The notes under the pieces are model-generated. The model saw only the letters and a program-made list of their open reading frames with translations, ran no database searches and was not told where the DNA came from. Below, piece after piece: positions 2,103 to 30,479 of a stretch of DNA of 33,619 bases; the first letter of the stretch is position 1; every line of letters starts with the position of its first letter. The DNA comes from a virus. A program made the translations under genes and the position numbers. The stretch is taken from the IMG/VR virus record IMGVR_UViG_3300024264_000105, positions 1 to 33,619 of that record. The stretch is one strand, 5' to 3'.

Positions 2103-2519
2103 CTATTCTTTATTATTTAGAAAACCTTGCTTTAACATTTTTTGAAGTTCTGATGTCGATCCAACAAACACTGCATTATTGGTAACATTGTTTGTAGTCT
2201 TCTTAGTCTCGTCTTCTACATCTTTAAGTTTCTTTTGTAAATCAATTAACTTATCAGTAGTATCTGCAACACTCTTAATCAACTGCCCTGCGACCTCGTA
2301 TGCCCTTGGACTGCCTCCTTCCCCTGCTACCTCCATAATGCCATTGATTGCCTCCTGACCCTTCTCTATGAGGGAGTAGAGGTTCGCACGACTATAGATA
2401 TAATCTTTCTCTATATCATCATCTTTCGATTTTATAATCTCTGGTTTTTTGATTGGTTTTGACTCGACAATATCACTCTCAATATTCAGAGCCTCATCTA
2501 TGGAATCATAATTATTCAT
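2103..2519 (-). CDS. 16: Terminase small subunit, gp16-like
   Basis: About 138 aa (T4 gp16 is 164 aa). In T4-like phages this subunit recognises concatemeric DNA and regulates the gp17 packaging motor. The N-terminus MNNYDSIDEALNIE is the form typical of T4-like cyanophage gp16. A helical core follows (about 45-105, with YSRANLYSLIEKGQEAINGI and a Lys-rich heptad-like helix), then a short C-terminal tail ending LKQGFLNNKE. The position directly after gp15 matches T4 order. I chose the ATG at 2519. An in-frame TTG at 2528 sits 7 nt after AGGA and overlaps the gp15 stop, so a nine-base-longer form (MIVMNN) is possible. Confidence 0.85.
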   Translation of the reverse strand: MNNYDSIDEALNIESDIVESKPIKKPEIIKSKDDDIEKDYIYSRANLYSLIEKGQEAINGIMEVAGEGGSPRAYEVAGQLIKSVADTTDKLIDLQKKLKDVEDETKKTTNNVTNNAVFVGSTSELQKMLKQGFLNNKE

Positions 2520-2524
2520 AACAA

Positions 2525-3325
2525 TCAAATATCCTCTTGTCTAGTAGGACTATAATCTTTAGAGTCTCCTAAAATTTCCCAACTCTCTGTAAATCCAAAA
2601 TCATCTCCAGGTTCTGCATCAATTGGGTCAGGAACAGCAGTATATCTCATTTCACGTGTTGCTGTCTTTATATTAGTATCGGCATAAACATCTGCCTGAA
2701 CCTTACGAATAAGTCCCTCGGATGTATCTGCAATAGAACCGAATAGATAAGTTTTAGCAGTAAATCTTAAAGTATAAATTAATGCCCTTCTTGCCTCAAA
2801 TGAACCTTCATAATCATCTTGAAAATCAATACTATCAAGAATAATTGGAATATCTCTTTTCTCCCCAATAGAACTGATTAAATCGACAGATAAATTAAGT
2901 GATGGTTGAAAAAATGGAAGTATTTGCTCAATAATTTGAAGGGCATCATCATTTAACTTACTAAAAATATTAAGTTCAAATCCAATATTATACGGAACAG
3001 GCATATAAACTTTTTTTATATTACCTCCTTTATCACAAGTTTTAAATGTTTGAGTAATCCCGGTTTTTCTTTGGGGATCATATTGAATTGTAGTCATTTC
3101 AAATGACATTCTCGGAAGAGTTATTGCAATAGATTTTGTTAACTGATTTTGTTGTTCAATTTTAGCAAGAAACTTTTGCATTGGACCATAAGAAAGTCCA
3201 ACTTTTGTTTCATCAAAAATACTTCCGTCACTTTTTTCATGTCTAATAAAGATATTATTAAATAATGTTCCAAAACTAATAATAGTTTTTCTTATAATTT
3301 CGTGATAAAAATATGTTCCTAGCAT
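2525..3325 (-). CDS. 15: Tail sheath stabiliser and tail completion protein gp15
   Basis: 266 aa against 272 in T4. gp15 forms the ring that caps the finished tail tube and sheath and joins the tail to the neck. The match to T4 gp15 is clear over its length: an N-terminal LGTYFYHEIIRKT start, a TLPRMSFEM segment near residue 70, the QIIEQILPFFQPSLN motif near 130 (T4: QIVEQILPYFQPHFN), and SEGLIRKVQADVYADT near 205 (T4: AEGLIRTTYTDFHANT). Its ATG overlaps the gp14 stop by one base (TAATG), which implies translational coupling. Position between 14 and 16 is as in T4. Confidence 0.95.
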   Translation of the reverse strand: MLGTYFYHEIIRKTIISFGTLFNNIFIRHEKSDGSIFDETKVGLSYGPMQKFLAKIEQQNQLTKSIAITLPRMSFEMTTIQYDPQRKTGITQTFKTCDKGGNIKKVYMPVPYNIGFELNIFSKLNDDALQIIEQILPFFQPSLNLSVDLISSIGEKRDIPIILDSIDFQDDYEGSFEARRALIYTLRFTAKTYLFGSIADTSEGLIRKVQADVYADTNIKTATREMRYTAVPDPIDAEPGDDFGFTESWEILGDSKDYSPTRQEDI

Positions 3326-4761
3326 TAATAAGTACCAAATGGATTTGACTCTGAGAAATCTAAAATATTATCTGCTTCAAATTCTATTTCTTCGTTACTG
3401 TCATATGGATTGTCATAACTTTCTAAATCATGTTCCCTGACAACGTATGTAGACGATGAGATTGATCCAACAATAATTTCACCCGCACTGAATTTCCCTG
3501 TATTTAGTGAAACTTTTAAATTAATCTGTGGATTTAATGTATTAGTATCAATGTCTATTCTGAAATCTCTAACTACAGCCGTCACACCAGATGTCTGACC
3601 AACAACTTCTTCATTGTATATAAATGTTCCAATGCCAATGGTAGAAAATCCAGTAAAAGATACTTCCGGTGCTTGTGTGTATCCAATTCCTGGATTTAGT
3701 ATTCTTAAAGAATCAATTTCCGCATTAGAATTAATTCTAGCAATTGCTGTTGCAGTAATACCTATACCAGGACTACTAATAATAACCTCAGGTGTAGTTG
3801 CATATCCAGATCCTGAATTAGAAATACTGAGAGAACTGATACTAAATTGGGTTCCTCCAATTGAGCATGTAGCAGCTGCTCCAATTCCACCACCTCCAAT
3901 TATTGTAATTGTTGGAGGTTCTATATATCCAGATCCGCCATTAATTAATTCCAATCTGAGAATTGAACGAACATTTAATACAGAAGTTGTTATTGCAACT
4001 GCTTCAGCAGCAAAACCTCCTGCTAATACATTTGGAGGAGGTGAAAATATTACAGTTGGTGTGGAAGTATATCCACTACCATCATTATTCAAAAATATTT
4101 CACTAACTGAATCACTAGAAATTCCTGCTGTTGCAGTGGCAGTAACAGCAATTCCAGCAAGAACAATAGATGTAATATATCCTTCGTCTTCTACAGTATT
4201 GTCAACTTCTTCAATGGCAGTATCAATAAGTTCATTTTCATACTCATAGAGTTCGCAACTCAATTCGTAAGTATAACTTGAACCTAATTGATAAAAAGGT
4301 TTTTCTGATTCTACTCTCTTAATTTCAAATAATCTTTCTCCGAGAGGAAAATAAACTAAATCTCCTTCTTTTGGTCTTGTGATTAAATCTGCAAAATCAT
4401 AGTCCGTAATTATACCGTCCCGAATACCTGCACTAATACCTTCTAGAAATGGAGCAATAAATTCTTCATATCTTTCTCTTGATATGGTTAAACTTATTTC
4501 ATTTTTCAATCTTAATCCAAATTTAGTCATGATATCACTATCAGGAGCATATCCATCATAATTATTCAGATATGCTTCTATCAGAAAACTATCATCAAAT
4601 TTGGAGGATTGTATTTCACGAATTATATTATCAGTTTTAAAAATTTTTCTTGGTAAGTAATAAACTTCTATACCATAAATTTTTAATTGCTCATTGATTA
4701 TATCTTGAACAAGAAATTGTTCGTTTGTAGATCCTTGAAGAAAAAACGGATTTAATGCCAT
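3325..4761 (-). CDS. 14: Neck protein gp14 with internal GSGY repeat insertion
   Basis: 478 aa against 256 in T4. gp13 and gp14 form the neck that closes the filled head and receives the tail. Residues 1 to about 185 are gp14-like: ALNPFFLQGSTNEQFLVQD, VYYLPRK, and the GDLVYFPLGERLFEIKRVE stretch. The extreme C-terminus (ILDFSESNPFGTY) also looks native. Between them, about residues 190-450 are Gly/Ser/Thr/Val-rich with at least four GSGY-type units (SGYTSTPTVIF, SGYIEPPTITI, SGYATTPEVII, IGYTQAPEVSF) spaced about 40-50 residues apart. This explains the extra length. The ATG lies five bases after the gp13 stop. The insert probably folds as beta repeats displayed on the neck; that is inference. 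Confidence 0.92.
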   Translation of the reverse strand: MALNPFFLQGSTNEQFLVQDIINEQLKIYGIEVYYLPRKIFKTDNIIREIQSSKFDDSFLIEAYLNNYDGYAPDSDIMTKFGLRLKNEISLTISRERYEEFIAPFLEGISAGIRDGIITDYDFADLITRPKEGDLVYFPLGERLFEIKRVESEKPFYQLGSSYTYELSCELYEYENELIDTAIEEVDNTVEDEGYITSIVLAGIAVTATATAGISSDSVSEIFLNNDGSGYTSTPTVIFSPPPNVLAGGFAAEAVAITTSVLNVRSILRLELINGGSGYIEPPTITIIGGGGIGAAATCSIGGTQFSISSLSISNSGSGYATTPEVIISSPGIGITATAIARINSNAEIDSLRILNPGIGYTQAPEVSFTGFSTIGIGTFIYNEEVVGQTSGVTAVVRDFRIDIDTNTLNPQINLKVSLNTGKFSAGEIIVGSISSSTYVVREHDLESYDNPYDSNEEIEFEADNILDFSESNPFGTY

Positions 4762-14573: not shown

Positions 14574-16088
14574 TTAGAATTCCAGAATAATTTTAACGTC
14601 TTCTTTTTGTCTTGAGTCTCTTTGTACTTCAGGTCGATTATCGATATAAATTATATCCCCCGTCTTTTTATTTATCTCTGGATTTGCAAGACCATTTGTA
14701 AACTCAACTCCCAAATTAATTAATTTATTTCCAAGATTTATAGTGCTTGTATTATTTAAAGTGGTGTCAACAGTTGCTGAATTTCCATCAATACTAATTT
14801 GACTTGAAGAATTGAACGATACAATATTTTTGGCAATAGACGTTTGGCTTTGATCTACATTATTACCAAAAGATAGTGATCTATCTTGATAATATTTTAG
14901 TATTTTAGTTTCAGTATCGAATGATGCAACATAACCTTCTGCAATTAATCCATTACCTTGATTTTGAGTTATCTTATCTCCAACATTTATACTTATTGAA
15001 GTTGTAATTCCAATAGAATAAAGAGAGGAAAAATTTCCTCCAGTAAAAGTAATTCCTACTCCTGAAAATGTTTCGGGATTTTTTAAAATGCCAACTTGAG
15101 CAAATTTAGTATCTGTAGGAAAGTCTTTAGTCGAATCATCAAATCTTGCGTATATTAATACTTTATCAGTACCTAATTCCTTGTAAATGTCATATCCATG
15201 ACCTTTAGAAGGTGGAATAATAGGTATTAATTTTGCACCTGTTCCTGAACTGGAATTTAAATTGACAATTCCATAAGTATATCCCTTACCTCCAGAAGTA
15301 ACAACAACACTTGTTATTTCTCCATTAGTTGTTGTTATTGAAACTTCTCCTCCACTTCCATCACCCAAAATAGATGCTGTAGTATCAACATATCCACTTC
15401 CACCACTCTCAATATATACCTTCTTTATTTGATTATTTTGAATATCTGAATTTCCACCATCTCTAATCCTTACAATTTCATTATTTAAACTATTTTCCCA
15501 ATTATTAGGAACAATAAAATATTCTGTAGAGTCAAACTTAATGATATCCGAAGGAGAAATTGTAAAAAGATATTTCCATCTATATCCATCAGATCCTACT
15601 GTGGGAGGTTCAATACTAGTATCAACTGGTTTAAATAAAGATCTTGGAACATTAGTAGGATTTTTTCCTGAAGTACCATTCTCTAAACATATGTAAACTT
15701 TAAATTCATCAGTAATTACATAATAATTGGAATTATATAAATTAAAAACTTTAGAAGATGGTGCTTCAGTATACTCACTATAGTCATGTCTGTACATGTC
15801 ATAAGAAGTGTTCGAAATCCAATCAACTCTTTTTACAACTCTTCTAACATTTTCTGAAGTTATTTTTTTTCCAAACAAAGAAGTATCTCTATAATGAGAC
15901 AGGTATTGAAAATTATCGATTGGATTATTATTAATACTAGTATTCCAATCGGATGTTCTTCCAAATCCAGGATTTGGAGTAGTTGGATTTGATAATCCTA
16001 AAAAAGCATAATAAGAATTATCATTTATGGACTCTATAAAGGAATTTGCATTCAATATTCTAAATTGATCTGTTACGAATGCGGCCAT
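14574..16088 (-). CDS. 8: Baseplate wedge subunit gp8 with internal GSGY insertion
   Basis: 504 aa against 334 in T4. gp8 is a dimeric wedge protein that binds gp7, gp6 and gp10 in T4. The T4-like signature is clear at both ends: VRRVVKRVDWISNTSYDMYR near 85, VGSDGYRWKYLFTISPSDI near 170 followed by TEYFIVPNNW (T4: GYVWEYLFEIPPD and EYIVVPW). The C-terminus GDIIYIDNRPE with VKIILEF parallels T4 GEMIYMENRPP and INILFTF. Residues about 222-295 contain two GSGY-type units (GGSGYVDTTASI, GGKGYTYGIVNL) before GHGYDIYKELG; these are missing in T4 and explain much of the extra length. A late promoter lies 18 nt upstream of the ATG. No strong Shine-Dalgarno is visible. Confidence 0.95.
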   Translation of the reverse strand: MAAFVTDQFRILNANSFIESINDNSYYAFLGLSNPTTPNPGFGRTSDWNTSINNNPIDNFQYLSHYRDTSLFGKKITSENVRRVVKRVDWISNTSYDMYRHDYSEYTEAPSSKVFNLYNSNYYVITDEFKVYICLENGTSGKNPTNVPRSLFKPVDTSIEPPTVGSDGYRWKYLFTISPSDIIKFDSTEYFIVPNNWENSLNNEIVRIRDGGNSDIQNNQIKKVYIESGGSGYVDTTASILGDGSGGEVSITTTNGEITSVVVTSGGKGYTYGIVNLNSSSGTGAKLIPIIPPSKGHGYDIYKELGTDKVLIYARFDDSTKDFPTDTKFAQVGILKNPETFSGVGITFTGGNFSSLYSIGITTSISINVGDKITQNQGNGLIAEGYVASFDTETKILKYYQDRSLSFGNNVDQSQTSIAKNIVSFNSSSQISIDGNSATVDTTLNNTSTINLGNKLINLGVEFTNGLANPEINKKTGDIIYIDNRPEVQRDSRQKEDVKIILEF

Positions 16089-16105: not shown

Positions 16106-16113
16106 TATTTATA
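16106..16113 (-). promoter_or_regulatory. T4-type late promoter (TATAAATA)
   Basis: A perfect TATAAATA on the minus strand overlaps the stop codon of the 4137-aa gene and ends 17 bases before the gp8 ATG. The spacing would leave a very short leader. It allows gp8 and the following genes to be made independently of the 12.4-kb gene upstream. Confidence 0.75.
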
Positions 16114-19100
16114 ATACAATCTTAGGTAGTGCTCCAGTTTTTCTAATACCAATACCTCTTCTTTGAATTGTTGGGTATGTTGATAATCCAGATACTATTT
16201 TTCCAGTAACTCCAATTGATATTGGATTTGAGGATCTTGTTCCACCAGATAATCTACCCCATGAATACTTACCTATAGGATTTAATATATTTCCGTTAGT
16301 GTTAATTCCAATAATATTAGAGTCTGATTTTACGTTACAAGTAAGAATTCCAATATTATTAATATTAGACCAATCTGAAATATAGTAAATATTGTCTAAA
16401 AATGTTGTTCCAATACCAACAATTGCAGAATCAGAACTATCAATTGATGTTACTCCGGTTCCAATTTGAGTATCGTAAATGTAAATAGGATATCCAGTCG
16501 ATATTCCTGAAAAAGGTGTGGAATTGGAATCATGAATTTCAAATTTAAGTGCTAATGAATTTCCACCTATTCCTGTAGTTGTTGTAATACCAGTTATAAT
16601 TCCAGAAAAACCACTAATATTACTAAATTCAGTTATAGATTCAATTGATCCAGATGCTTCAGTAGAAATTCCATTAATAACTATAGCGTTAAATGGAAGA
16701 GAATCATCACCAAATCCGGGAGTATCAGTTTCATAACCGAATAACTCTGAATTATCAACAAATATTTCGGTATCAGTTGTTGATATATCTTTTATAATTC
16801 TGGATGTTGGGAATATGAGAGGTTCTAATGAATCTCTTGTTTTGTAAGTAAATTGCCCATTAATTTTTTTACTTGTTTTTTGTTTTGTCCAAGAAATTGG
16901 TCTGAATTTTACTTCATTAATCCCAAGACCAGAATATTTATTAGTTTCTAGTTTATCTGAAAATTTTATATTATAAATGTTTCTCTCATCTTGAGTTGAA
17001 ATATCAGAATGTAAATTGCTACTTTTAACTTGAAGAATATCACCATTTTTTAGAGTTGATGTAACTTCTACAAATTCTGTATCAATATTACCAACTCCTT
17101 TATAAAAGTAAACATCTATCACATCTTCTGGTTTTGGTGCTTCTGTGAATAAAAATGAAGTTCCCCCTTCAAACTGATAATTTATCATAGGTTCTTGAAG
17201 AATGCCATTTATAAAAATTATAAGTAAATTGGAAATGTTATTTTCAATTTCTGAACCAGACTCAGTTTCAAAACTGATGAGTTCCCCATTATAAAATATT
17301 GGAAATCTAGTTCTAGAACCATCTTGAAGTTGTTTTATAGAATCTAAAAAGTCAAGTTCACCAAATTCCCAACCAGCAAAATTATCAGTATAAACATCTT
17401 CTACTGTGATAGTAAAATCCGATATTGGTGAAGAAAGACTAGAATCTGTGACCAATCCAATCGGTTTAAATATATCTCCTTTTTTAAAATTAAATCCAGA
17501 TCTTGAGAATTTAAAATTATTTACTTCAAAGTAAGTTGATCCTATTCCTGTAGATCCTCCAAGTTCAACATCAACTAATAAACCAGAACCTGATTCAGTC
17601 GTATTACCGATACCAGACCTAAAGACACCGACTATAGGTAAATTTTCGTAAGATGGATCTGATACAAATATTTTTGGATTTGTGTATCCAGTTCCTCCAG
17701 ATCCTACGTTGAAAGATAAAGTTCCTCCAACACCAATGGATGCTGATATTGAAGCAACTTCTCCAACATGCCCTTCTTCAAAAACACTTATTCCAATTGA
17801 AACTAAACCATTATATCCAGATCCAAGATTGTCTGTTGTCCCAATTCCAACGGATACAATAGATCCTCCAGCACCAACGACAGATGTTACTGAAGCACCC
17901 ACAAGAGGAGCAAATCCAAGTCCGGGACTAGATCCATATGAAACAATGATACCACCTCTAGGAAGATCATTTAAGTTTACATCATAATCTGAAGTTATAT
18001 ACTCTAAAGGATTATTTGGATTTGAAATTCCCGAAAATGTTATAGAAGATATTCCAGAAACTAAATTTTCAGAAATATTATAATTGAATACATTTGGATT
18101 ATTGTCTGTTTTTGGTGATTGGTAGGAATCATTAACTAAAATAAATCCATTACCACCAATAGTTCCAATTCCTGTAGTATTTGCACCACCTACTCTCAAT
18201 GAAAATGTTCTACCAATTCCCGTAAATTCATCAGACAAATCATCATAAATTTTATTACTTAAATAATTAGATTTCAAAAATACCCTACCAGTAAATGATG
18301 ATTTTGGCAAAGATAAATTAATATCTGATTTTATATCTTCCAATGGAAGTTCTGAAAAATAAATTCTACTATCTACAATATTAAATGATCCTTTATAAAC
18401 TCTTGCTATACTAGAATCTAAATGAGTTGATGCAGAAGATCCAACAAATCCTCTATCAACTTCTACCAAGTTTATATTTCCATTATTTGTAATTGGTCCC
18501 AAATTAGTTGTTCCAAATCCAACATTAACAACTTTCATATACTCATCATCTACTAACAATATATCATTAGGAACTATTGTTGATATTCCACTCAATGATA
18601 TAATGTTAGTATCCAATTCAACTTGACCTCCTACATTTCCAATAAGATCATGTTTTATTTTTGTGAATGCTAATGGATATTGAATTAAATCATCAATAGT
18701 AATAATGCACTTGGAATTTCTTTCTTTCATAGTAAATTTATGAGCATTTCCTCCACCTATAGAAGTGAAAGTTGTGCCAATACCACTTTGTGCATCTGTA
18801 AGTGACGTTGCAATTTTAAAAGTGTCTTCAGTTAATTTAATTGCATAAACAGTAGAAGGCAAATCACCACTAGGAGTGGAGATCGAACTAGATCCAATTC
18901 CAAAAAATGTTGTATCTGGGGTATAAATTAATTCTTCACCTGTTCTAAAAAAGTGATTTTCAATAGTAAATATTCCTGTAGTTGCTGCCAATGCTACAGA
19001 ATTGGGATTAAATTCTTTTGAAAAAATAGGTGTTTCATTATTTTTTAAAATAAAACCTGATTTGATAGTAATAGGATTTATGGTTTTTTCATCGATCTTT

Positions 19101-22100
19101 TCAACTATGCTTCCATAATTTAAATTTAAATAATCACTAGCAGTGTCTAATTCAGTATATAATTTCTCATTAAATACTTCAATTTCAATTTGTCCCGTCT
19201 TATCTGCATCTGGATAAAATTTAATTACAGCATTATCTCCAGATATCTCCCCACCAAAAGTTCCTATTCCAGAAGAATCATTATTGAATGCTGAAAGAAA
19301 TGGTAGTTGTTGAGTATATACATCAGTTCCATCATGAGCAATAATTATTTGATGAAGTACTTTTGTAGATCCTATACTTACTTGAACTAAAGATTTTGAT
19401 GTATTAAAAGTATTTTTATCGAGAGTATTAATAGTAGTTGATGCTGCGGAAACTGTGGATGTATAATTTGAATCATATATTGCACTTCTTTCGCTACCAT
19501 CAAATAATTGTCCAGTAGCTTCAAATCTATAAGTTCCTATTCCAGATGATGTTGTACCAAATCCAACTATTCTTGATTTTATTTCAATAGAATTTGGTGA
19601 ATTATTCTCATGCGATACAGATAAAATTCCACTATCCAAATTTGCATAAAATGTTCCTATCCCACTAGATGAACTTGATATTAATGAAGTATCACTATAA
19701 TACTCCGATAAGAATGTATCTACACCATTATGAACAATATACAAACGAACATATTCCATTTCACTTGTAACTTTATCAATAACTTGAGAATTGATATAAA
19801 CAGATTCAAAAGAATTTGAATCTAAAGAGATAATTGTAGTAGTCCCAACACCAACACTAGAGCTTTCAATAACATCGGATGCAATTAAATCTATAAAACC
19901 AATAGATTCTCTATCTGTATGAATACCAGTACTTCCAGTATTTTCAAATGTTTTTTTAATTAATTTTATAAAATATTTTGAATTTAAAGTAATTTTATCA
20001 TTTGGTTTAAATACTAATTCAGTATTTCCAGAAATCTCATCAGTATTCAAATCAAAACTTCCATAAGAATAAATTTCAAAATTTAAATTTGTGGATCCTG
20101 AAGTAACAACAGATTCATTATCGGATATAAATGTTCCTTTATCATTACTTAAAATAGTAACATCTGTTAATTGAACTTTAGTATCATCATCTGATGTTAC
20201 TCTAAGTAAAAAATTATAATATGTTTCATTTTTCAATTGCTCTATTGTGAAAAATTCTTGATTTTGATTGGCAAAAGTTAAAAATTGATTACTAATATCG
20301 TCAATTTTTAATACATTTAAAGTATTTTTTAACTCTATATAATCTGAGAGTATCGTATTTTTAAATTTTAAAAATTTCGATTTAGAATCATTAACATCTA
20401 CGTCTAAAACTTTATCAAAATTATTAATAGTATAAGCATATTTTTTATCAATAATATTTTTTGTAATTGCAATAGTATTTGTAGAAGTAGATAATCCTGC
20501 ACTAGTATTTTTCTGTATTTGAGTATCAGCAAAGTTTTTTAAACCACTTATATGAACCAAATTTTCAACTGGAGACTGCTGATCTCTATATGTTATTGGA
20601 CTTTTTATAGAATAAGATAAATTTTGATAATAGTTGTTATCTGCAATAACTTGAAAATTTTCACTTAGTTTTCCAGTATCATTATCCCAACCAATATTTT
20701 TTAAATAAGAATATTTAACATCAAAAATTGCATTATTTGAATTTATAGATTCTATAGTTGCAATAGTACCAGAATCTTCACCTACTATTATTTCACCAAC
20801 TGATAATTTGTATAATCCACTAACTTTTAAGTTATTGCTATTGCTTTCGGATACAATTAAATCTCTAATTATTCCGTTAGAAGATAATTTTTCGCCAACA
20901 GAAAAGTTTAATTCTTCTTTAGAAAAATCAAATAATGGATAATCATTTTTATTAATTATAGAAGAGGTGAAAAATTGATCTGTTTTTGCAATTCCAGTAT
21001 TTGAAGTTATATCAGAGATATTAATAGTTACTCTATCATTAACTCCAGTATTATCATAATCACTCACTTTAAAAAATTTATATCCATAATCTGACGAATT
21101 AAACCCATCACCTTCAGAACTATCTTTTATAACTCCTTCTACAAAAACACTATCCCCTATAGAAAAAGGTTGGGAAGTAAAGTCAGAGGATCCAAAATTT
21201 ATTGGTGTAGATATGGTACATGTAAAGATGCCAGAATTTGATGATTCTACTTTTTCAATAGAAATACCATTACTATTATTAATAGAAATTATTTCTACAT
21301 TTCCATCTGGCAATCCTTTTGGTTTTACAACTACTTCTGCTGAAAAAATTGAGGATTCTGATAATAAGGGTTTAATAAATCCAGAATTTATTACATTCCT
21401 ACTAACCGAATCTACAATTATTAAATTTGGTTCAGTTACATAACCATTTCCACCATTTATTACAACTATATTATCATTTATAGTTTTTGAATTTTTTAAT
21501 TTAATTGTTGGAGATATATTTGCTTTAGGTCTAAGAGTTGTATCAGAAGAATATATGAAATTGTCATTAATAATTCTTGTTTCTCTTATAGATCCCAATT
21601 TACTAGATCTTAGATTTACTTTTAAGTTTTTACCTGAAGAAGAATTTGTGGATCTAATTGTTGGGAATTTCTTATATCCTGATCCGGAAGATATAATATT
21701 TAAATTTTTTACTGGACCGGATGGTGAAGTTGATGTTGTTGAGTACTCAAGAATATCACATTCTTCTGATGAATAAGAAATTTTTTCAGGTTTTTTTTGT
21801 AGATTTATATTAAATGTCGTTTCTCCTATTCCACCAATGACATATGAATTGTTATAATCACTATTCACATAGATTATTCTAGAATAATTTTTAGTGTCGG
21901 TATCAGAAGTAACTAATTCTCCATCTTTTACTAAAGTATAGAACAATTCTTCGGGAATTTGTGTAGTGTAGTTTAATGTTAAAGATGCAGTAGACGTTAC
22001 TCCTACTGTTCCAACTCCAGATACACTAAAAGTATCTGTAGATCCAGTAGAAACAAATTCATTATTAAATTTCTCATCAGTATAAAGTTTAAATTCATAT

Positions 22101-25100
22101 CCAGATAAAGAAGAATCTGAAAGATCAAATACTAAATTATTATTTTTGACTGGTTGTAATTGTGGATTAATTAATGATATTGATTGTGAAGAACTTCCTG
22201 TAGAAGCAAAAGATACAACTGTTGGAGGATTTTGTTGAGAATCTATTAAAGTTTCGCAGAGATTAATTCTATTTCTATTAATTTTATAGACATAGTACTC
22301 ACTATTAGTCAATGGTGATGGTCTAATAAATCTTCTAATAATATCATCACCACTAGAACCGGCATAAAAATTTTCTTCGTCTGGAGAAACATATATTGAT
22401 GTTGGTGTGATTGAAGTTCCTAAATCAATTCTATCTAATTCAGTACCAGTAACAATGTCCCATGGTGTTGATAATTTATAAATGTAAAAATTATCTGAAC
22501 CAGCTCCGACAAAATATACTAAGGTTCCAGAGGAATTGATATGTATATCAGATGGTGCTGCATCTGGAGGATTAAGATCTATCCTACCCGTGCTATCTCC
22601 CGAATAAGATGCTGTTGTAATATCCCATGAGGTTGAAAGGTTAAATTGGTAAATAAAATCACCAGTACTTCCAATTAAGTAAAGTACCGAACCATCATAT
22701 TTAAAATAAAGTCCCGTTGGAGAAATTTGTGAAGAAAATCCGTCAATAGAATTACTACTACCAATGAATAAACTTACATTATCATAACTTGCTGTGGTAA
22801 TATCCCATGCAGAAGTCATAGAATACTGATAAATTGTATCATTGTCATTTCCAGTAATCCAGAACTTAAGACCATCCTCTCTGATATAAAGTCCACTAGG
22901 TTTGGTGTCTTCCGATGCAACATCAAATTTGTTCGTAAATACTGCCGTGCTCGGACTCCAAGGTGTTGAAAGTGCATATTCATTGACTTCATCAGAACCA
23001 GAACCGAGAGCATACATTTTAGTTCCATCTGGTTTGAAACGTAATGATTGTAGACCATTATCTTGGGAACTAGTGTCTAATTGATCACTAGTTTCAATTA
23101 AGTATTCAAAATTATCATCTTCATAAAGAACCTTATCACCAGTTACTAACTCATGATTTGCAATTGTAATTTCATCAGTTACTGTATTGATTCCTGTAGA
23201 GTTAAATCCAATTGGATTGACTACGATATTATCAATTTGAGATTTATAAAGAACACGAACTGCTGTTGAAGTTCCAATACCTACTGAAAGATTTGGTTGA
23301 ACATCTAATGTTACCGTATCTCCATTTTGAAGTTCGTGGGAAGTTGATACGGAAACAGTCACTACATTCTTATCTATATCTCCAAGTATTTGAGTGAAAT
23401 TAGATTCAAATTTATATTCGTCATTATCATCTCCATTAGTATGGAAAAATAATTCAGGACTAGAGATAGATGTTTTTAATCCAATTACATTATTATTTTT
23501 ACTTACAACAAAAAGATTTGATGGTAGATTAAATGTGGAGGATCCATCTGTAGAAACAGATACATTTGTTCCATTGGGAGTATAAATTATAGATTGATTT
23601 GTTTTGAATGGATGTTTCTCAATAAAAATGCCTTTAGATGGAATATCTCTAGTTACACTCACATCACCAAATACAAATGATGTGCTATATCCAACACCAT
23701 TTATTGTAGAAATTCCTACAGATTCTTTGGGATTAAAGAAAACTCTATCATTCAGAGAAGATTCAAAATTATCTACAGATTTAGAAATTAAAAATGAATC
23801 TGGGAAAAACGAAACTGCACTTCCAACATTGTGTATAGTTCCAGGAGATCCTCTTCTAACTCTAATGATATTTTGATTCACAAATATTCCAATAACTTTT
23901 AAAGTTTCTGTTCCAATTCCAATACTACTACCGAGAGATAATACATTAGATATTGATATCGGAGAAACATATATTTCTGTGGTAATTCCAGATGAATTTA
24001 TAGTAGAAAGACATCTACCCTGCGAATATTCAGGAACTTCTATTTTATGAAATCCGTTTAGTTCTGAAAGGTTTGTTGAAAATCCAGATACCAATACATA
24101 ATCATTATTTGAAAGATTTTGAATAGGTAATATCGATACTCTAACTTTTTTCGAAGACTCCCATGTAAAGATGGAATTTGGATATGAAGATGAAGTTGTA
24201 TTTAATTCAGTTATGTCTTTTCCTTTAATTGAGGAAACATTTACATTTAATCCACTTCCAGAAGTATTTGTTTCATCAAAATTAATTACATCTCCAACTT
24301 TATAATCGCTACCAGAATTTTCAACTACTAAAGATTCAATTGGACCTGATGTTGCAGATAATACTTCTATAGTTTGGTTTATTATATCATTTGATTGAAT
24401 AATGAAATCATAATTAGAATTTATTTCAGATACTCTATATGGAAAAGTATTTCTCAATAAGTTAGAATTTTTAAAGTCAAATGATTGATCTAAGTTTGAA
24501 TCTGAAATTAATTCTGATTTATACTTATTACCAATAAAGTAAGGAAATGTATTATTTGTTGCATGGTATGCATACACACCATTTGGAAATTCATCATTTA
24601 CTTCATATCTACCATTATATTCATCCAAATCTCCATTATTATTAAACTCATAATCTTCTACAAAAAATCCATTAAAAAACCCTGAAGGTCTATCTTCGAC
24701 ATTTGATACCTTAGTTTCATATCCAGATTTTAATTTTTTTACTTCAGAAAACTTATCTTTTGGATCTGAATATCCAAAAGGTCCATAGATAGGATTACCA
24801 TCATAAGCCCATCCAATAATTCCTGATAAAGAGTTATCTTCTAAAAATATAGATCTTAATTGACCAAAATATTTTGATACTGAATATTGTAATTTATCTT
24901 TACCTTTTAATAAAACCTCTCCTCCATTAAATCTAACTTCATTATCATTAATAGTTAATTTTCTTATATTTGGATCAATTATTAAACCATTTCCTGCAGA
25001 AATAACTTTAATTATTGTATTAGTTGAAGAATATCCGATTCCCGTGTTGAGAATTTTTACATCTGTTATTTTTCCTTCATCTATTATTGCTCTCAACTCT

Positions 25101-28100
25101 GCTCCAGATCCATCACCAGAAACAATTAAATCTGGGACTGAAAAATATTCATTATCTGAAAAATTAATAGAAACATCTACAATTTTTCCATTTGCAATTT
25201 TTGGTATTATTTCTGCATTATTACCATTTTTTATGGAAATAATTGGTTTCTTGTTGAAGTTTAATATGGTTGAACCGTAACCTGTTCCAGACTCATAAAC
25301 ATAAGCATCTATAATACTGCCTCTAACTACTGGTGTTGTAATTAATTCCTTATATTCTTGAGTGGTACTTCCAACCCCTACAGGAGTATATTTAATTGAA
25401 ACTGAAATGTCTGGATATTTAAAGTACTGATAACCATTACCAGTACTTTCTAATAATTCATATTTTTTTCTTTCATAATTTGAGGTAATAGTTCCTCCAA
25501 TCCCAGTATTCGATAATCTAAAAGAATCATTATCAATTTTTATTACTTTATATTGATTATTGGTTGTAATCCCACTTATTTGAGTATCATCATAAGAATA
25601 TTCTATTATCTCCCCATCATTAAATCCATGATTTTTAAAATTGATAGTATTTTTAGTAGTAGATATTCCAGATGATTTCACAATCAACTTTCTATTAGTA
25701 TAATTACTTCCACCTTCAATTACTTTTGCAAATGCAACTTGTTTTTTTAATGATAAGGTACTAAACTTATGATCTCCGAAAGAACCTGAAAAAATTCCCA
25801 CAGGATTTACTTTTGATATCTGATCTTCAAGTGAGTTATATAAAGTTATAGATTTATTATTATCAACTTGAGCAAAATAAGATGAATTTTTAGGAAGATC
25901 TATAAAAGTTGATCCTACAGATATTTTTATAGGAGAATTATTTAATGGGTCATAAATAATTTCTTCCCCATTAGAAAAATTATGTTCCTCAAAAAACAAA
26001 ATTTGATTTGTTGCTACATTAACTCCACCTCCAAGAGAAAGTTCATTAGAATTAAAAGAAACATCTCTGGATCTTTTAATTAATACAGGTTCAATTGATG
26101 CTCCTGAACCATTTCCACCAATAATATCAACAGAAACTATTTTATCAATATCATAATTTTGAGAGTCTACGTATACTTTTTCTAAACTGCCACTTACAAC
26201 AGGATTAATTTTTGCGGTGGATCCTAATCCAACAGAAACTTCAACTAATGGTGGATTTATCACATCATAATTTTCGCCAGATGAGAGAATATTTACATCT
26301 TTAATTGGTCCATAATAAATTACATCTTCAGACTTGTAATTATTAATTTCAACACCGTTTATTAAAATTCCAGTTTTTCCAGGTAAAGTGTTTTGTCCAG
26401 AACCATTTTTAATGTTCTTTTCCAAAGGAATTTTTTTTAAAAGTTTTTGTATTCCAAAAACTTCATCACTCTGAGAAAATAAAATGAATCTGTCATTTCC
26501 AACTCCGGAAGGAGGTATAAAGAAAGTTTCGTATAGATCAGATTCTATAAAAGATAATGATTTATATAATTTAAATTTTTGATTTCCTAAATTTTCAATA
26601 TAATAAGAACCAGCACTTAATCCAATTAAAGGTTCAGATTCTGGATCATAAAGAATCCTATCACCAGTTATAAAAGGTAATGAATCTACTGTGATACTAG
26701 AATATAGTTGTTTATCGGCATCAAAATCTGAAAGATTACTTATACTATTAATACTAGTAGATTTAATAGTAGATTCTACATCAAAACGATAATTTTCAAT
26801 AACTTTATTATTTAAATCCTTAAAATCTGATCTTATCTCAGACGGAAATGAGTTAGATGCAACATATGCATATTCATCATTATCTGTATATAAGTTAATA
26901 ACATCAGATAATAATGAACTACTTTCAAAATTATAACCAGAAGAGTTTGCTTTATTTAGCTTTCTCCTTATATCATATTTTTTATTTTGATCTAAAGATG
27001 GAGTATTTTTTAGTCCTAGAGAATTATTATTAACATCAATAGTTTGAATGTAAGATGATTGATTTATTGAATGTGCTGAAATTTCACTATTTCTTTCTAA
27101 AATTTCAACTTCATCTCCAATCTTTAAACTAGATCTGTCAATAGTAGATGATAGAGTTATATTATTATTATCTAAAATTTCATATCTTGTTGTAGTATTG
27201 TATATAAAAGAATTTGCAAATATCTCTTTCCAATTTTTTCCAGTATTATTAATTTTATCTCCAATATTTTTAATTGAAAATTTATCTCCTTCTCCGACAA
27301 TAAATTCATCACTTTCCTTCATTATATTATCAATTTTTCCGTGAAGTATTAATTCAACTTTTTTAGAAGTATCTCCATCTTCATAAGAAAAATATGTATC
27401 ACTCGATATTATATTGGAAGTTGCATCAATATTATTAACACCAGTACATCCAAAAAATTGATTAATAGTTTTTCCTGTATAGTTAATTGAACTATTTCCT
27501 GAAGTCAGAGTTCCAAATTCAGGAAAATCCAAAGTAGAATCTACATTTAAAATGGATGATCCTACAGATACACTTTCCAATAATTTTGTATTTGGAGTAA
27601 TTGCAAAATTTCCTTGAACAGAAGATTCTAAATTGTTTCCAATATAAATTTGTAATGTATAATATGTCTTACCATTTGCTGAAAAAGGTTCTATTTCAGA
27701 AATCGATGCATTAGTATTTAAATCTGTGGATTTAAATATAGTTTGTCCTTTTATATTTAAAGGGTTTCCAGATATAGATTCTGCAACAACAATTTCTCTT
27801 CTTAAGTAATTTGCAGAAGATGGTTTAATTAGATAATTTTCTAAGTTTACTACTGAAGCATCTTCACCAAAAATAACTTTAAAAAGAATTCTTACAGATT
27901 CTTCAGTTCCTTTGGATTTATAAAAATCTCTTACTCTTCTTATAAAATTTCCGACATCAAGACCTTTTGTTAAGGGAATATTTTCAAATCCCGGAGCAAA
28001 GGTAAATTTTAATTTTTTGTAAAAATCCTTTAAAAATAATGTACTTAAATTTTTAATAGAAGACTTATCAGAATGTTCTGAAGAAGTTGATGTAGAAAAT

Positions 28101-28522
28101 ACAAGTTCTTCGCGATTCAAATCTTGATGATAATTTGTTACACCACTAAATCCACGAATACATCCAGTAAAACTATTCGTTGTAATTCCAGTATAAGTTA
28201 TTATTTCATCATCAATTTTTAATAGACCATATTTATTTGGAAATCCTTTTGTACTAGAAACCTCAATTATTGTATCTTCACTATTGATTGCTCCAGTTAA
28301 TGTTGCATCATCAAAAATAATCGAATCATTTAAGTTAGATAATTTTAAATATTCATCTATATTATCACTGATATCAATTGGACCACCTTGATATTCTTGA
28401 GAAATATAATATTGCTTTAAAAATTCAACTGCATTTGGACTATCATCAAAGATGAAATTTGGTAGTTGACTTTCAACAAGGTCTTGTACTTTTATTTTAG
28501 ATTGAAGTCCAGTTTGTATCAT
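16109..28522 (-). CDS. Giant 4137-aa baseplate/tail structural protein in the gene 7 slot (YHYH domain, beta-propeller)
   Basis: One uninterrupted frame of 12.4 kb between gp6 and gp8, where T4 has gene 7. No direct gp7 similarity was recognised, so the equivalence rests on position. Residues 1-300 include a PNKYGLLKIDDEIITYTG module and a conserved RRVRDFYKSKGTEESVRILF segment. A YHYH-type domain lies at about 1235-1330: GWAYDGNPIYGPFGY, then YAYHATNNTFPYFIG. Five blade-like repeats of about 50 residues form a propeller at about 1810-2070. Two tandem beta-sandwich repeats lie at about 2895-3125, and a FINGILQEPMINYQF fibre motif near 3780. GSGY and HxFxxGxxIxY modules recur throughout. The ATG lies one base after the gp6 stop. 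It is likely a very long wedge-attached or fibre-like protein that helps in host contact. Confidence 0.88.
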   Translation of the reverse strand: MIQTGLQSKIKVQDLVESQLPNFIFDDSPNAVEFLKQYYISQEYQGGPIDISDNIDEYLKLSNLNDSIIFDDATLTGAINSEDTIIEVSSTKGFPNKYGLLKIDDEIITYTGITTNSFTGCIRGFSGVTNYHQDLNREELVFSTSTSSEHSDKSSIKNLSTLFLKDFYKKLKFTFAPGFENIPLTKGLDVGNFIRRVRDFYKSKGTEESVRILFKVIFGEDASVVNLENYLIKPSSANYLRREIVVAESISGNPLNIKGQTIFKSTDLNTNASISEIEPFSANGKTYYTLQIYIGNNLESSVQGNFAITPNTKLLESVSVGSSILNVDSTLDFPEFGTLTSGNSSINYTGKTINQFFGCTGVNNIDATSNIISSDTYFSYEDGDTSKKVELILHGKIDNIMKESDEFIVGEGDKFSIKNIGDKINNTGKNWKEIFANSFIYNTTTRYEILDNNNITLSSTIDRSSLKIGDEVEILERNSEISAHSINQSSYIQTIDVNNNSLGLKNTPSLDQNKKYDIRRKLNKANSSGYNFESSSLLSDVINLYTDNDEYAYVASNSFPSEIRSDFKDLNNKVIENYRFDVESTIKSTSINSISNLSDFDADKQLYSSITVDSLPFITGDRILYDPESEPLIGLSAGSYYIENLGNQKFKLYKSLSFIESDLYETFFIPPSGVGNDRFILFSQSDEVFGIQKLLKKIPLEKNIKNGSGQNTLPGKTGILINGVEINNYKSEDVIYYGPIKDVNILSSGENYDVINPPLVEVSVGLGSTAKINPVVSGSLEKVYVDSQNYDIDKIVSVDIIGGNGSGASIEPVLIKRSRDVSFNSNELSLGGGVNVATNQILFFEEHNFSNGEEIIYDPLNNSPIKISVGSTFIDLPKNSSYFAQVDNNKSITLYNSLEDQISKVNPVGIFSGSFGDHKFSTLSLKKQVAFAKVIEGGSNYTNRKLIVKSSGISTTKNTINFKNHGFNDGEIIEYSYDDTQISGITTNNQYKVIKIDNDSFRLSNTGIGGTITSNYERKKYELLESTGNGYQYFKYPDISVSIKYTPVGVGSTTQEYKELITTPVVRGSIIDAYVYESGTGYGSTILNFNKKPIISIKNGNNAEIIPKIANGKIVDVSINFSDNEYFSVPDLIVSGDGSGAELRAIIDEGKITDVKILNTGIGYSSTNTIIKVISAGNGLIIDPNIRKLTINDNEVRFNGGEVLLKGKDKLQYSVSKYFGQLRSIFLEDNSLSGIIGWAYDGNPIYGPFGYSDPKDKFSEVKKLKSGYETKVSNVEDRPSGFFNGFFVEDYEFNNNGDLDEYNGRYEVNDEFPNGVYAYHATNNTFPYFIGNKYKSELISDSNLDQSFDFKNSNLLRNTFPYRVSEINSNYDFIIQSNDIINQTIEVLSATSGPIESLVVENSGSDYKVGDVINFDETNTSGSGLNVNVSSIKGKDITELNTTSSSYPNSIFTWESSKKVRVSILPIQNLSNNDYVLVSGFSTNLSELNGFHKIEVPEYSQGRCLSTINSSGITTEIYVSPISISNVLSLGSSIGIGTETLKVIGIFVNQNIIRVRRGSPGTIHNVGSAVSFFPDSFLISKSVDNFESSLNDRVFFNPKESVGISTINGVGYSTSFVFGDVSVTRDIPSKGIFIEKHPFKTNQSIIYTPNGTNVSVSTDGSSTFNLPSNLFVVSKNNNVIGLKTSISSPELFFHTNGDDNDEYKFESNFTQILGDIDKNVVTVSVSTSHELQNGDTVTLDVQPNLSVGIGTSTAVRVLYKSQIDNIVVNPIGFNSTGINTVTDEITIANHELVTGDKVLYEDDNFEYLIETSDQLDTSSQDNGLQSLRFKPDGTKMYALGSGSDEVNEYALSTPWSPSTAVFTNKFDVASEDTKPSGLYIREDGLKFWITGNDNDTIYQYSMTSAWDITTASYDNVSLFIGSSNSIDGFSSQISPTGLYFKYDGSVLYLIGSTGDFIYQFNLSTSWDITTASYSGDSTGRIDLNPPDAAPSDIHINSSGTLVYFVGAGSDNFYIYKLSTPWDIVTGTELDRIDLGTSITPTSIYVSPDEENFYAGSSGDDIIRRFIRPSPLTNSEYYVYKINRNRINLCETLIDSQQNPPTVVSFASTGSSSQSISLINPQLQPVKNNNLVFDLSDSSLSGYEFKLYTDEKFNNEFVSTGSTDTFSVSGVGTVGVTSTASLTLNYTTQIPEELFYTLVKDGELVTSDTDTKNYSRIIYVNSDYNNSYVIGGIGETTFNINLQKKPEKISYSSEECDILEYSTTSTSPSGPVKNLNIISSGSGYKKFPTIRSTNSSSGKNLKVNLRSSKLGSIRETRIINDNFIYSSDTTLRPKANISPTIKLKNSKTINDNIVVINGGNGYVTEPNLIIVDSVSRNVINSGFIKPLLSESSIFSAEVVVKPKGLPDGNVEIISINNSNGISIEKVESSNSGIFTCTISTPINFGSSDFTSQPFSIGDSVFVEGVIKDSSEGDGFNSSDYGYKFFKVSDYDNTGVNDRVTINISDITSNTGIAKTDQFFTSSIINKNDYPLFDFSKEELNFSVGEKLSSNGIIRDLIVSESNSNNLKVSGLYKLSVGEIIVGEDSGTIATIESINSNNAIFDVKYSYLKNIGWDNDTGKLSENFQVIADNNYYQNLSYSIKSPITYRDQQSPVENLVHISGLKNFADTQIQKNTSAGLSTSTNTIAITKNIIDKKYAYTINNFDKVLDVDVNDSKSKFLKFKNTILSDYIELKNTLNVLKIDDISNQFLTFANQNQEFFTIEQLKNETYYNFLLRVTSDDDTKVQLTDVTILSNDKGTFISDNESVVTSGSTNLNFEIYSYGSFDLNTDEISGNTELVFKPNDKITLNSKYFIKLIKKTFENTGSTGIHTDRESIGFIDLIASDVIESSSVGVGTTTIISLDSNSFESVYINSQVIDKVTSEMEYVRLYIVHNGVDTFLSEYYSDTSLISSSSSGIGTFYANLDSGILSVSHENNSPNSIEIKSRIVGFGTTSSGIGTYRFEATGQLFDGSERSAIYDSNYTSTVSAASTTINTLDKNTFNTSKSLVQVSIGSTKVLHQIIIAHDGTDVYTQQLPFLSAFNNDSSGIGTFGGEISGDNAVIKFYPDADKTGQIEIEVFNEKLYTELDTASDYLNLNYGSIVEKIDEKTINPITIKSGFILKNNETPIFSKEFNPNSVALAATTGIFTIENHFFRTGEELIYTPDTTFFGIGSSSISTPSGDLPSTVYAIKLTEDTFKIATSLTDAQSGIGTTFTSIGGGNAHKFTMKERNSKCIITIDDLIQYPLAFTKIKHDLIGNVGGQVELDTNIISLSGISTIVPNDILLVDDEYMKVVNVGFGTTNLGPITNNGNINLVEVDRGFVGSSASTHLDSSIARVYKGSFNIVDSRIYFSELPLEDIKSDINLSLPKSSFTGRVFLKSNYLSNKIYDDLSDEFTGIGRTFSLRVGGANTTGIGTIGGNGFILVNDSYQSPKTDNNPNVFNYNISENLVSGISSITFSGISNPNNPLEYITSDYDVNLNDLPRGGIIVSYGSSPGLGFAPLVGASVTSVVGAGGSIVSVGIGTTDNLGSGYNGLVSIGISVFEEGHVGEVASISASIGVGGTLSFNVGSGGTGYTNPKIFVSDPSYENLPIVGVFRSGIGNTTESGSGLLVDVELGGSTGIGSTYFEVNNFKFSRSGFNFKKGDIFKPIGLVTDSSLSSPISDFTITVEDVYTDNFAGWEFGELDFLDSIKQLQDGSRTRFPIFYNGELISFETESGSEIENNISNLLIIFINGILQEPMINYQFEGGTSFLFTEAPKPEDVIDVYFYKGVGNIDTEFVEVTSTLKNGDILQVKSSNLHSDISTQDERNIYNIKFSDKLETNKYSGLGINEVKFRPISWTKQKTSKKINGQFTYKTRDSLEPLIFPTSRIIKDISTTDTEIFVDNSELFGYETDTPGFGDDSLPFNAIVINGISTEASGSIESITEFSNISGFSGIITGITTTTGIGGNSLALKFEIHDSNSTPFSGISTGYPIYIYDTQIGTGVTSIDSSDSAIVGIGTTFLDNIYYISDWSNINNIGILTCNVKSDSNIIGINTNGNILNPIGKYSWGRLSGGTRSSNPISIGVTGKIVSGLSTYPTIQRRGIGIRKTGALPKIVL
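22315..23095 (-). repeat. Five-blade propeller repeat domain within the giant protein
   Basis: The encoded units share the pattern PSGLYIxxDGxKxYxxGxxxDxIYQYxxSTxWDITTAxY, seen as FKPDGTKMYALGSGSDEVNE, REDGLKFWITGNDNDTIYQY, FKYDGSVLYLIGSTGDFIYQ, NSSGTLVYFVGAGSDNFYIY and SPDEENFYAGSSGDDIIRRF. The plus strand shows matching repeated words (atatcccatg). The base composition is visibly richer in G+C than the flanks: one 60-base line inside has 25 G/C and one line outside has 19. Confidence 0.85.
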
Positions 28523-28523
28523 A

Positions 28524-30479
28524 TTACTTTCTTATTAAATTGCCGTTTGAATAACTTGATGTATAAAAATCATTGACAAATCTAGTTCCAGATATTTCAT
28601 CTCCAGAAGCAATTACGTCTCTCAAAGTATTTATTGTACTTCTAGAAACGTTTAGTGATATATATAAGTCCCTAAGTCCAACAACATCATTAGATTCTGG
28701 AAATGCTTGTATCTCTATAACATTATTAGGAACTGTGGTTTCTGTAATAGTTATGGTCTCAATATTAATTTCTCCCTTTTCATAATCAACTGTTCCTGCA
28801 TTTTTAGAAACAACAACAACATTTCCATTAATATCAAATTTTATTAATGAAATAATTCCAGTTTTTGTATTTAAAGATGCTGATCTTTCAAGAAAAGTAT
28901 TTCCGGATTGAATATTTGGAGTATCTGTAATATAAACTGTAGAACCTTCCCCTAAGATTTTAAATCCCGTGGATTTAATATTATATCCTTGAGGTTTTAC
29001 ATTAAAACGGTTTCCAAAACATAACTCATATTGAGAAGTTTTGTTTATTACTACCTGTAAATCTCTACGAATAGTAACTTTTGTAATATTTGATGTAATA
29101 GCAGTATCTGTATTATCAATAACTTGTTGTATTTTACTGTATTTAAATCTTCCTCCAAATCTATTTAATTCATCGGATTCTGAATATTTTTGAATAGAAT
29201 TGATTACGGAACTTTTGAGTGATTCTGGATTAGATGTTTGCGAAAAATTATAATATATGGAGCTATTGAGTTCAACATATAAAATCTTAAGATCAACTAT
29301 TTTTTGGTTTATTCCAGAAACTGAAAATTGCTTTAATTTTGAAAGAATTTCACTTTTATTAAAGTCTGATATAAAACTTCCATTTTTTGGTTTAATACTA
29401 ATCTGAACCGTGCCAAATTCTGGTGGATCCAATTCTTGACCACCAACAACAGAAACCGATTCTGTATCAGGATATATTCTTTTAATTATTGTTTCATAAT
29501 CTCTAGATGTTACTGCTCTAGATTGTGCAGAATATAATTTAGGCGCATAATATTTTATAGAATCAATCGGTTCTATATTACTACCATTAAATGAAGATTG
29601 GACTGTTTGGACAATAATTGATCCAGGACTAATAACATTTTGATTGGAATCCTCTATGGATCCTATAAATGAAAAATTAGAAGCATCATTACCTTCTATT
29701 CCATCAGTAGTAATGTAAGTTGCATTAATTAAAGTTCCATCAGATCCTACACTATCTCCAAGTTTTTTTCCTATAATTCCATCTCCAAATTTTAATTCAT
29801 ATTTTTCATCTTGAACTTCATTGACAAAATATATTCTTGAATTTTTATTAACATTAAAAATATCTTCTGAAGGATAATATTCAATTCCTAATCCAGAAGT
29901 AGAAGATTTTTTTACATAAACTCTTAATGTTGAAGTATCAATAAACGAATTGTTCAATATGAATCTTTGATCTAATGATCCGTCATATTCAAATTGTTTT
30001 AATAAAAATATTCCTTGATAGATTAAAATATTTTCAAAAGATGCAAGACCATTAATTATATTTACCGTTATATCTTCTGGTATTGCAAAATTAAATATGG
30101 AAGTATTGTTTCCATCTACTGATGCCCCTGAACATACAAGACCTGCCTTAAGAGTGAGTGTAGGACTATTTGAAGTTGTTGTTACATTAAAAGATATTCT
30201 TGCTGTTGAAGCAGTTCTGGAACGTGGCAAATATCCTATATTTCCGGCAAGAGATACAACATTTTCACGAAGAGTTGCAGAATCCAAAAAGGATTCATTT
30301 ACAATCATATTGGAGTTAAATGCTGTAATATAAGTATTATATGCTAATGTATCAATTAAAATAGAAAAATTAGACCCTTCAAAATCAAAATCCGTGAATG
30401 TAGAGTTGGCACGGAGATAGTCTTTGATGGATGTTTTTATCTGATCAAAATCTAGATTCGTATATTTTGTAAAAGGCAT
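28524..30479 (-). CDS. 6: Baseplate wedge subunit gp6
   Basis: 651 aa, close to T4 gp6 (660 aa). gp6 dimers form the continuous ring of the baseplate wedges and clamp gp7. The N-terminus has the family pattern: FTKYTNLDFDQIKTSIKDYL, then DFEGSNFSILIDTLAYNTYI and NMIVNESFLDSATLRENVVS, followed by the AGNIGYLPRSRTA segment. The middle holds FGDGIIGKKL (near 230) and an AVTSRDYETIIKRIYPDTES motif (near 320), both typical of J-like/gp6 baseplate proteins. The ATG lies one base after the gp25 stop, and its stop is one base before the giant gene start. The 25-6 pair is therefore a tightly coupled wedge unit. Confidence 0.96.
   Translation of the reverse strand: MPFTKYTNLDFDQIKTSIKDYLRANSTFTDFDFEGSNFSILIDTLAYNTYITAFNSNMIVNESFLDSATLRENVVSLAGNIGYLPRSRTASTARISFNVTTTSNSPTLTLKAGLVCSGASVDGNNTSIFNFAIPEDITVNIINGLASFENILIYQGIFLLKQFEYDGSLDQRFILNNSFIDTSTLRVYVKKSSTSGLGIEYYPSEDIFNVNKNSRIYFVNEVQDEKYELKFGDGIIGKKLGDSVGSDGTLINATYITTDGIEGNDASNFSFIGSIEDSNQNVISPGSIIVQTVQSSFNGSNIEPIDSIKYYAPKLYSAQSRAVTSRDYETIIKRIYPDTESVSVVGGQELDPPEFGTVQISIKPKNGSFISDFNKSEILSKLKQFSVSGINQKIVDLKILYVELNSSIYYNFSQTSNPESLKSSVINSIQKYSESDELNRFGGRFKYSKIQQVIDNTDTAITSNITKVTIRRDLQVVINKTSQYELCFGNRFNVKPQGYNIKSTGFKILGEGSTVYITDTPNIQSGNTFLERSASLNTKTGIISLIKFDINGNVVVVSKNAGTVDYEKGEINIETITITETTVPNNVIEIQAFPESNDVVGLRDLYISLNVSRSTINTLRDVIASGDEISGTRFVNDFYTSSYSNGNLIRK

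Follow-up and report, generated by a model that had tools for sequence, protein, structure and literature searches.

Why does a giant virion protein of this phage carry a beta-propeller in the middle of one of its repeated beta modules, and how did it get there? The original prediction, made from the window (a 33.6-kb viral contig), described a module copy that is broken by blades of about 260 residues and resumes behind them. Both half-module strings and the blades lie where it had placed them: in the translation of a minus-strand ORF of 4137 aa the halves are ANHELVTGDKVLYEDDNFEY (residues 1788-1807) and SEYYVYKINRNRINLCETLI (residues 2074-2093), and a small HMM of the module splits the interrupted copy in two (1783-1803 and 2069-2092) with the junction at a loop. 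The same HMM matches further copies in the protein; the copy at residues 958-1006 was part of the HMM seed, and those at 610-652, 844-858, 1632-1657 and 3186-3209 are weaker. The figure of about 260 residues is correct for the blades, whereas the inserted unit itself has 272 (Table 1). In the homologue alignment these residues stand where one module copy would otherwise have a turn of four residues (SGYN). One of the empty turns reads YEDSGYNEYFVYK, and the window has YED-D1803...S2074-EYYVYK there. When an empty relative (L034) was modelled, strands 148-152 and 156-163 were joined by a 3-residue hairpin turn. The best structural Z for the fold of the flanking module was just 6.4, which gave no identification.

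Table 1. Features of the interrupted module, the inserted propeller and the surrounding baseplate genes in the window.
Feature	Residues	Window position	Strand	Basis
Phage-Gp8 (gp8-like wedge protein), downstream of gp7		14574-16088		Domain match
gp7-like giant baseplate wedge protein, 4137 aa, insertion host		16109..28522	(-)	ORF, phrog_2885 profile and gene order
Second half of interrupted module, EYYVYKINRNRINLCETL	2075-2092	22247..22300	(-)	HMM 25-48; model strand 424-430
Inserted unit, 272 aa	D1803-S2074	22301..23116	(-)	Alignment with empty relatives; L004/L026 DNA comparison
Predicted blade 5, strands a-c	2042-2066	22325..22399	(-)	Model strands and blade alignment
Predicted blade 4	1992-2033	22424..22549	(-)	Model strands and blade alignment
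Predicted blade 3	1935-1982	22577..22720	(-)	Model strands and blade alignment
Predicted blade 2	1875-1919	22766..22900	(-)	Model strands and blade alignment
Predicted blade 1	1824-1867	22922..23053	(-)	Model strands and blade alignment
Predicted closing strand (d5), completes blade 5	1809-1816	23075..23098	(-)	DSSP strand 159-166; outer-strand alignment
First half of interrupted module, DEITIANHELVTGDKVLYED	1783-1802	23117..23176	(-)	HMM 1-21; model strand 147-152
Uninterrupted module copy	958-1006	25505..25651	(-)	Module HMM
gp6-like wedge protein domains, upstream of gp7		28524-30479		Domain match

The 4137-aa ORF matches the profile phrog_2885 (baseplate wedge subunit; E = 0, 3307 bits) in four stretches over most of its length, and the best stretch, residues 2-1806, stops at the insert. 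The ORF lies in a baseplate cluster with the gene order gp25-gp6-gp7-gp8, and its relatives carry the gp7 label in deposited records. As judged by sequence it matches the cyanophage gp7 (baseplate wedge) family, and we refer to it as gp7. The nearest isolate to the window's phage is S-SKS1, a phage of Synechococcus WH7803. A search with the whole protein against PDB sequences, T4 gp7 and solved baseplate chains included, gave no match at E ≤ 0.1. We also found a YHYH domain (PF14240, E = 9.1e-24) within gp7 at residues 1229-1328 (window 24539-24838). Two long blocks of gp7, residues ∼2313-3536 (window 17915-21586) and ∼137-950 (window 25673-28114), differ strongly between relatives that are otherwise close, with dN mostly 0.3-0.5 and far higher than in the remaining protein, and are possibly further surface-exposed or exchanged regions. 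Elsewhere in the window, a neck protein (T4_neck-protein, head closure; 3325-4761) is extended at its C terminus by sequence that matches repeats from giant structural proteins of virions (phrog_701, phrog_19630 and, with a weak match, the gp7 family phrog_2885).

Most relatives of gp7 are empty at this site. A tblastn query of residues 1500-2400 matched 102 phage records, only two of which had a query cover of at least 80%, and these are the GenBank and RefSeq entries of one genome, S-SKS1. The cyanophage records that we inspected match the query in two pieces with the propeller skipped, and alignment places a short loop at the site in S-SRM01, S-T4, P-SSM2, AG-345, Sf-CH8, S-CAM7 and ACG-2014f. 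An IMG/VR scan with the right flank yielded 80 loci, mostly of the short-turn type. Among 85 aligned loci, which are the best-scoring relatives and neither a census nor an unbiased sample, the hairpin is uninterrupted in 73 and the propeller sits at the identical turn in 12. The propeller is thus far from being shared by all relatives, and this contrast between empty and occupied homologues settles that it is an insertion, as the original prediction of a clean domain insertion into a loop had it. All occupied copies retain an open frame, and junction residues of the DDNFEYL/DDTFEYL type and RPSPL are common to all of them, including one that is 44% identical (L069). S-SKS1 (Llyrvirus) is the only isolate of the collection in which we found a propeller at the gp7 turn. 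An assembly artefact was rejected: the occupied form was recovered from this isolate as well as from multiple independent contigs, and two contigs of separate datasets have the empty form. In both the GenBank and RefSeq records of S-SKS1 (NC_020851.1, 6583-13580), gp7 is left without a CDS across ∼7 kb. Its tblastn match crosses several frame changes, and the related loci L003 and L005 are intact open frames of 4136 and 4250 residues; sequencing errors probably caused the frame changes and kept the gene, with its propeller, out of the annotation.

The insertion can be followed at the DNA level in a near-identical pair of loci. The empty locus L026 and the occupied locus L004 are 98.2% identical across 454 bp upstream and 98.5% across 2393 bp downstream, and between the matched sides there are 7 bp in L026 and 811 bp in L004. 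No difference is seen in the 122 bp that lead up to the insert. Past it there are 36 downstream mismatches, 22 of them in the first 70 bp, and identity is nearly 100% beyond, so that the two loci differ essentially by the propeller and ∼70 bp alongside it. Such a pattern marks a recombination tract of ∼1 kb that lies inside a single gene. A locus from a second metagenome dataset, 99.9% identical to L026, is likewise empty. Matched outside the site, L004 and L026 approach a ready-made natural control pair.

Exchange of the propeller extends beyond this pair. On a tree built from the flanks only (85 rows, 12 occupied), at least seven changes between occupied and empty are needed. Starred branches force five of these, and the AU test rejects one clade for all occupied loci (p = 2.6e-45). 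Among eight close occupied loci, mean dS is 0.11 in the propeller and 0.44-0.86 in propeller-free gp7 windows, with propeller dN ordinary. For L052 against L064, dS is 0.12 inside the propeller and roughly 0.9-2 in propeller-free windows. Trees of propeller and flanks, built for ten loci, are mutually incompatible, each topology being rejected by the other data (AU p = 1.7e-50 and 1.1e-41). Synonymous constraint as the cause of the low propeller dS was rejected, with the propeller of the window differing from those of L052 and L064 at dS 0.64-0.77. The low propeller dS, the conflict between trees and the repeated changes of state show that homologous recombination has recently carried the cassette from one diverged gp7 backbone to another, and we are practically certain that this is an inserted, horizontally exchanged propeller domain. 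In addition, L001 and the window have a dS of 0 to the left of the propeller and 0.46 to its right, and there is therefore another recombination breakpoint near its right edge.

It is highly improbable that the propeller was present ancestrally and was lost repeatedly instead of being transferred into empty lineages. The junction residues that the occupied copies share do suggest one insertion event, but vertical inheritance with loss predicts equal dS in propeller and flanks, where we see a far lower propeller dS, and the conflicting trees contradict ancestral presence as a sole explanation. The number of state changes on the flank tree carries no information on direction, gain or loss, so some of the empty sites may be losses. 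The simplest history is one original insertion followed by spread, because the other compared isolate cyanophages are empty and the occupied copies have their junction residues in common. The acquisition had been predicted to be recent; this holds for the exchange between gp7 backbones, as dS and trees indicate, but the insertion event is older and apparently single, with RPSPL also present in the 44%-identical copy.

Base composition says less about origin. The blades had been described as visibly higher in G+C than their flanks, and a window scan of G+C and GC3 agrees in that the insert has 35.0% G+C against 28.0% in the rest of gp7, and a GC3 (18.4% against 10.7%) unmatched by any equal-length window of gp7. 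The rise in GC3 is modest, however, and the total GC of the insert is reached by 13% of equal-length windows across the whole contig. In L003, 2 of 111 gene windows match the GC3 of the insert. We rejected composition as proof of foreign origin and take it as weak support.

An AlphaFold2 model of residues 1651-2250 (600 residues) was calculated from an alignment in which rows of stand-alone propellers are misaligned over the flanks, so that the model rests mainly on the gp7 rows. It predicts with confidence that residues 1803-2074 form a five-bladed beta-propeller with velcro closure, in which each blade has four strands and the N-terminal strand closes the ring. With pLDDT mostly 85-97, the blades are modelled as a separate closed domain, as had been anticipated. 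VIA-align pairs it with the C-terminal domain of YjiK (3qqz; Z 22.0, rmsd 3.0, 230 aligned) as well as with Pizza6 and NHL propellers at Z 17-18; the phi11 and PRD1 propellers are absent among the 50 fold matches listed, which leaves room for them further down. Among BFVD viral models, Lentibacter phage ICBM2 is one of the fold matches (match 3). A phmmer search of the propeller against the PDB returned no solved sequence relative. We assigned the faces from strand order and the convention that the B-C and D-A loops make the top face of a propeller (PMC4400149), where most propellers bind ligands (PMC2716378). On this geometry both tethers would exit on the C-D side, the bottom, because the N-terminal strand closes blade 5.

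The two faces differ sharply in variation. Among nine close copies, the mean pairwise amino acid difference is 0.314 in the top loops (68 sites) and 0.051 in the bottom loops (66 sites), and 0 of 14 linker sites vary. The difference between top and bottom loops has a permutation p of 5e-5, an optimistic value in that loop sites are treated as independent, which within a domain they strictly are not. Pairwise dN/dS, which is inflated by recombination, is 1.18 in the top loops, 0.67 in the strands and 0.37 in the bottom loops and linkers of the close copies; with distant copies added the pattern is the same (0.92, 0.46 and 0.21). Part of this variation may have been imported by patchwork exchange and not by selected point mutation, because pS is higher as well in the top loops (0.177). 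The top loops of propellers generally tend toward variability. The variable top codons were considered as the target of a diversity-generating retroelement, which was rejected: their base sets are mixed at all positions, with no adenine-only pattern. Diversification on the presumptive binding surface together with modular exchange between phages is a pattern of the receptor-binding type.

These data also bear on what the propeller is for. A neutral hitchhiking insertion, gained and lost patchily without selection on binding, would fit the patchy presence, with most relatives empty, and a whole-domain dN/dS of 0.76 suggestive of weak constraint. We consider it very unlikely, since the bottom loops and linkers are strongly conserved, every occupied copy has kept its open frame, and recent spread over diverged backbones is unexpected for a useless insert of 272 residues. 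An enzyme that breaks down polymers of the host surface (for example a glycan hydrolase or a lactonase, as other propellers of five or six blades are) is brought to mind by regucalcin/SMP-30 and lactonases among the fold matches (Z 14.6-16.8) and by a weak sequence likeness to the Pfam models SGL (22.3 bits) and Lactonase (12.7 bits). Both scores are under the curated cut-offs (26.3 and 21.7), and the face that usually holds the active site is the most variable part, unlike a conserved catalytic centre, which makes an enzyme distinctly unlikely. A structural or stabilizing decoration of the baseplate that binds another virion protein (a fibre or a neighbouring wedge) and is exchanged with its partner is a somewhat better candidate, although still an improbable one. 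It accords with gp7 being a core assembly protein and with a propeller that is optional and has an invariant or nearly invariant bottom face and linkers. Yet this would require the partner to bind at the hypervariable face and to co-vary with it, and the exchange tract of L004 and L026 lies inside one gene, so that no neighbouring gene moves with it.

At least 500 IMG/VR stretches encode related propellers, and those examined outside gp7 are separate ORFs, mostly of ∼255-830 aa, that lie near tail/fibre or structural genes of marine phages; many of them have 9-10 or 13-14 WD-like blade motifs. Characterized phages with related propellers include Lentibacter, Roseobacter and Maribacter phages. 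In the stand-alone phage ORFs L111-L184 the number of blade motifs is often near a multiple of five (5, 9-10, 13-14), which suggests tandem five-bladed propellers. No stand-alone propeller was among the matches in a scan with the gp7 junction. Cellular genome contigs gave 13 matches, from CPR, archaeal and other MAGs, nearly all 29-39% identical at any length, and on these grounds a recent cellular donor was rejected. Giant ORFs in MAGs of Patescibacteria, Nanoarchaeia and others also encode remote propellers of the same blade type (L185-L196). The suggested search of bacterial and phage sequences thus turned up marine phage relatives beside tail and fibre genes but no close donor, the nearest relatives outside gp7 in phage and cellular searches being ∼40% identical.

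Several known systems resemble the gp7 insert in part. The propeller of Lentibacter phage vB_LenP_ICBM2 is 39% identical over 92% of the query and has a matching predicted fold; it and Roseobacter phages CRP-9 and CRP-13 share the blade sequence type FKPDGTKMY...LSTPWDITTASY. Unlike the gp7 insert, propellers of this type are separate ORFs of ∼255-830 aa or belong to fibre-like proteins. The gp7 proteins of cyanophages P-SSM2, S-T4, S-SRM01, S-CAM7 and ACG-2014f are of the same family and have the same flanking module, but with a short loop at the propeller site. Gp45 of Staphylococcus phage phi11 contains a five-bladed propeller whose blade 5 is likewise closed by an N-terminal strand joining three C-terminal strands, with a proposed GlcNAc pocket (PMC4901313). 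In Gp45, however, the propeller is the central domain of a trimeric protein that is dedicated to receptor binding in a siphophage, where ours is a hairpin-turn insert in the baseplate wedge of a myovirus, and phmmer against the PDB found no sequence relation between the two. Lactococcal siphophages have inserted carbohydrate-binding modules, with measured sugar binding, in evolved Dit and in other proteins of the virion (PMC6669499). Evolved Dit resembles gp7 in having an optional internal insert in a conserved tail or baseplate protein, present or absent in otherwise similar copies. It is a different protein of a different phage group with a different fold (BppA-type CBM); sugar binding was measured for the lactococcal modules, and recombination and one-face variability for the gp7 propeller. 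Both propeller adhesins of phages and carbohydrate-binding modules inserted in virion proteins are already known, and the gp7 insert extends such cases.

We propose, at a probability of about 0.7, that the propeller serves gp7 of a marine cyanophage-type myovirus as a ligand-binding head, one that is optional and is exchanged horizontally. Indirect support for a binding head comes from variation confined largely to one face, the conserved attachment side and the relatives in phage fibre-type genes, and the contrary points given above weaken the enzyme, decoration and neutral readings. By analogy with phi11 Gp45 (PMC4901313) and the inserted carbohydrate-binding modules (PMC6669499), host-surface binding would be its most likely role. 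An essential role is argued against by the majority of gp7 relatives, which manage without a propeller. The propeller would be seated in the tight turn of the beta-hairpin module, with both of its ends attached on the conserved bottom side, so that the variable top face (D-A and B-C loops) would presumably be directed away from the baseplate of the virion. There it may bind a surface component of the host cell, with a glycan such as LPS the likeliest candidate, and thereby may affect host range. The conserved gp7 flanks would let homologous recombination swap a short-loop allele for a propeller allele, or one propeller for another, in one step and with reading frame and fold undisturbed.

Little is understood of how marine cyanophages change hosts, and the focus so far has been on tail fibres and on hypervariable islands that have been named. 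When cyanophages were evolved in an experiment (PMC6224464), those mutated virion genes to which a function could be assigned belonged nearly all to tail fibres and baseplate, and allelic exchange was put forward as an additional natural route. In gp7, a core baseplate gene, we see a self-contained domain with one variable face that is passed as a single unit between diverged phages, which pinpoints a specific protein, site and surface at which host change can be tested. The docking of this domain in a hairpin turn, with the two chain ends on the same side, also illustrates how a phage can graft a new domain into a structural protein and keep assembly intact. More tentatively, and with rather less than even odds, the gp7 hairpin turn might serve specifically to dock a cassette for host recognition that allows marine T4-like phages to switch host range in one step, independently of tail fibres. 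If so, gp7 would be a second, hidden host-range locus of cyanomyophages.
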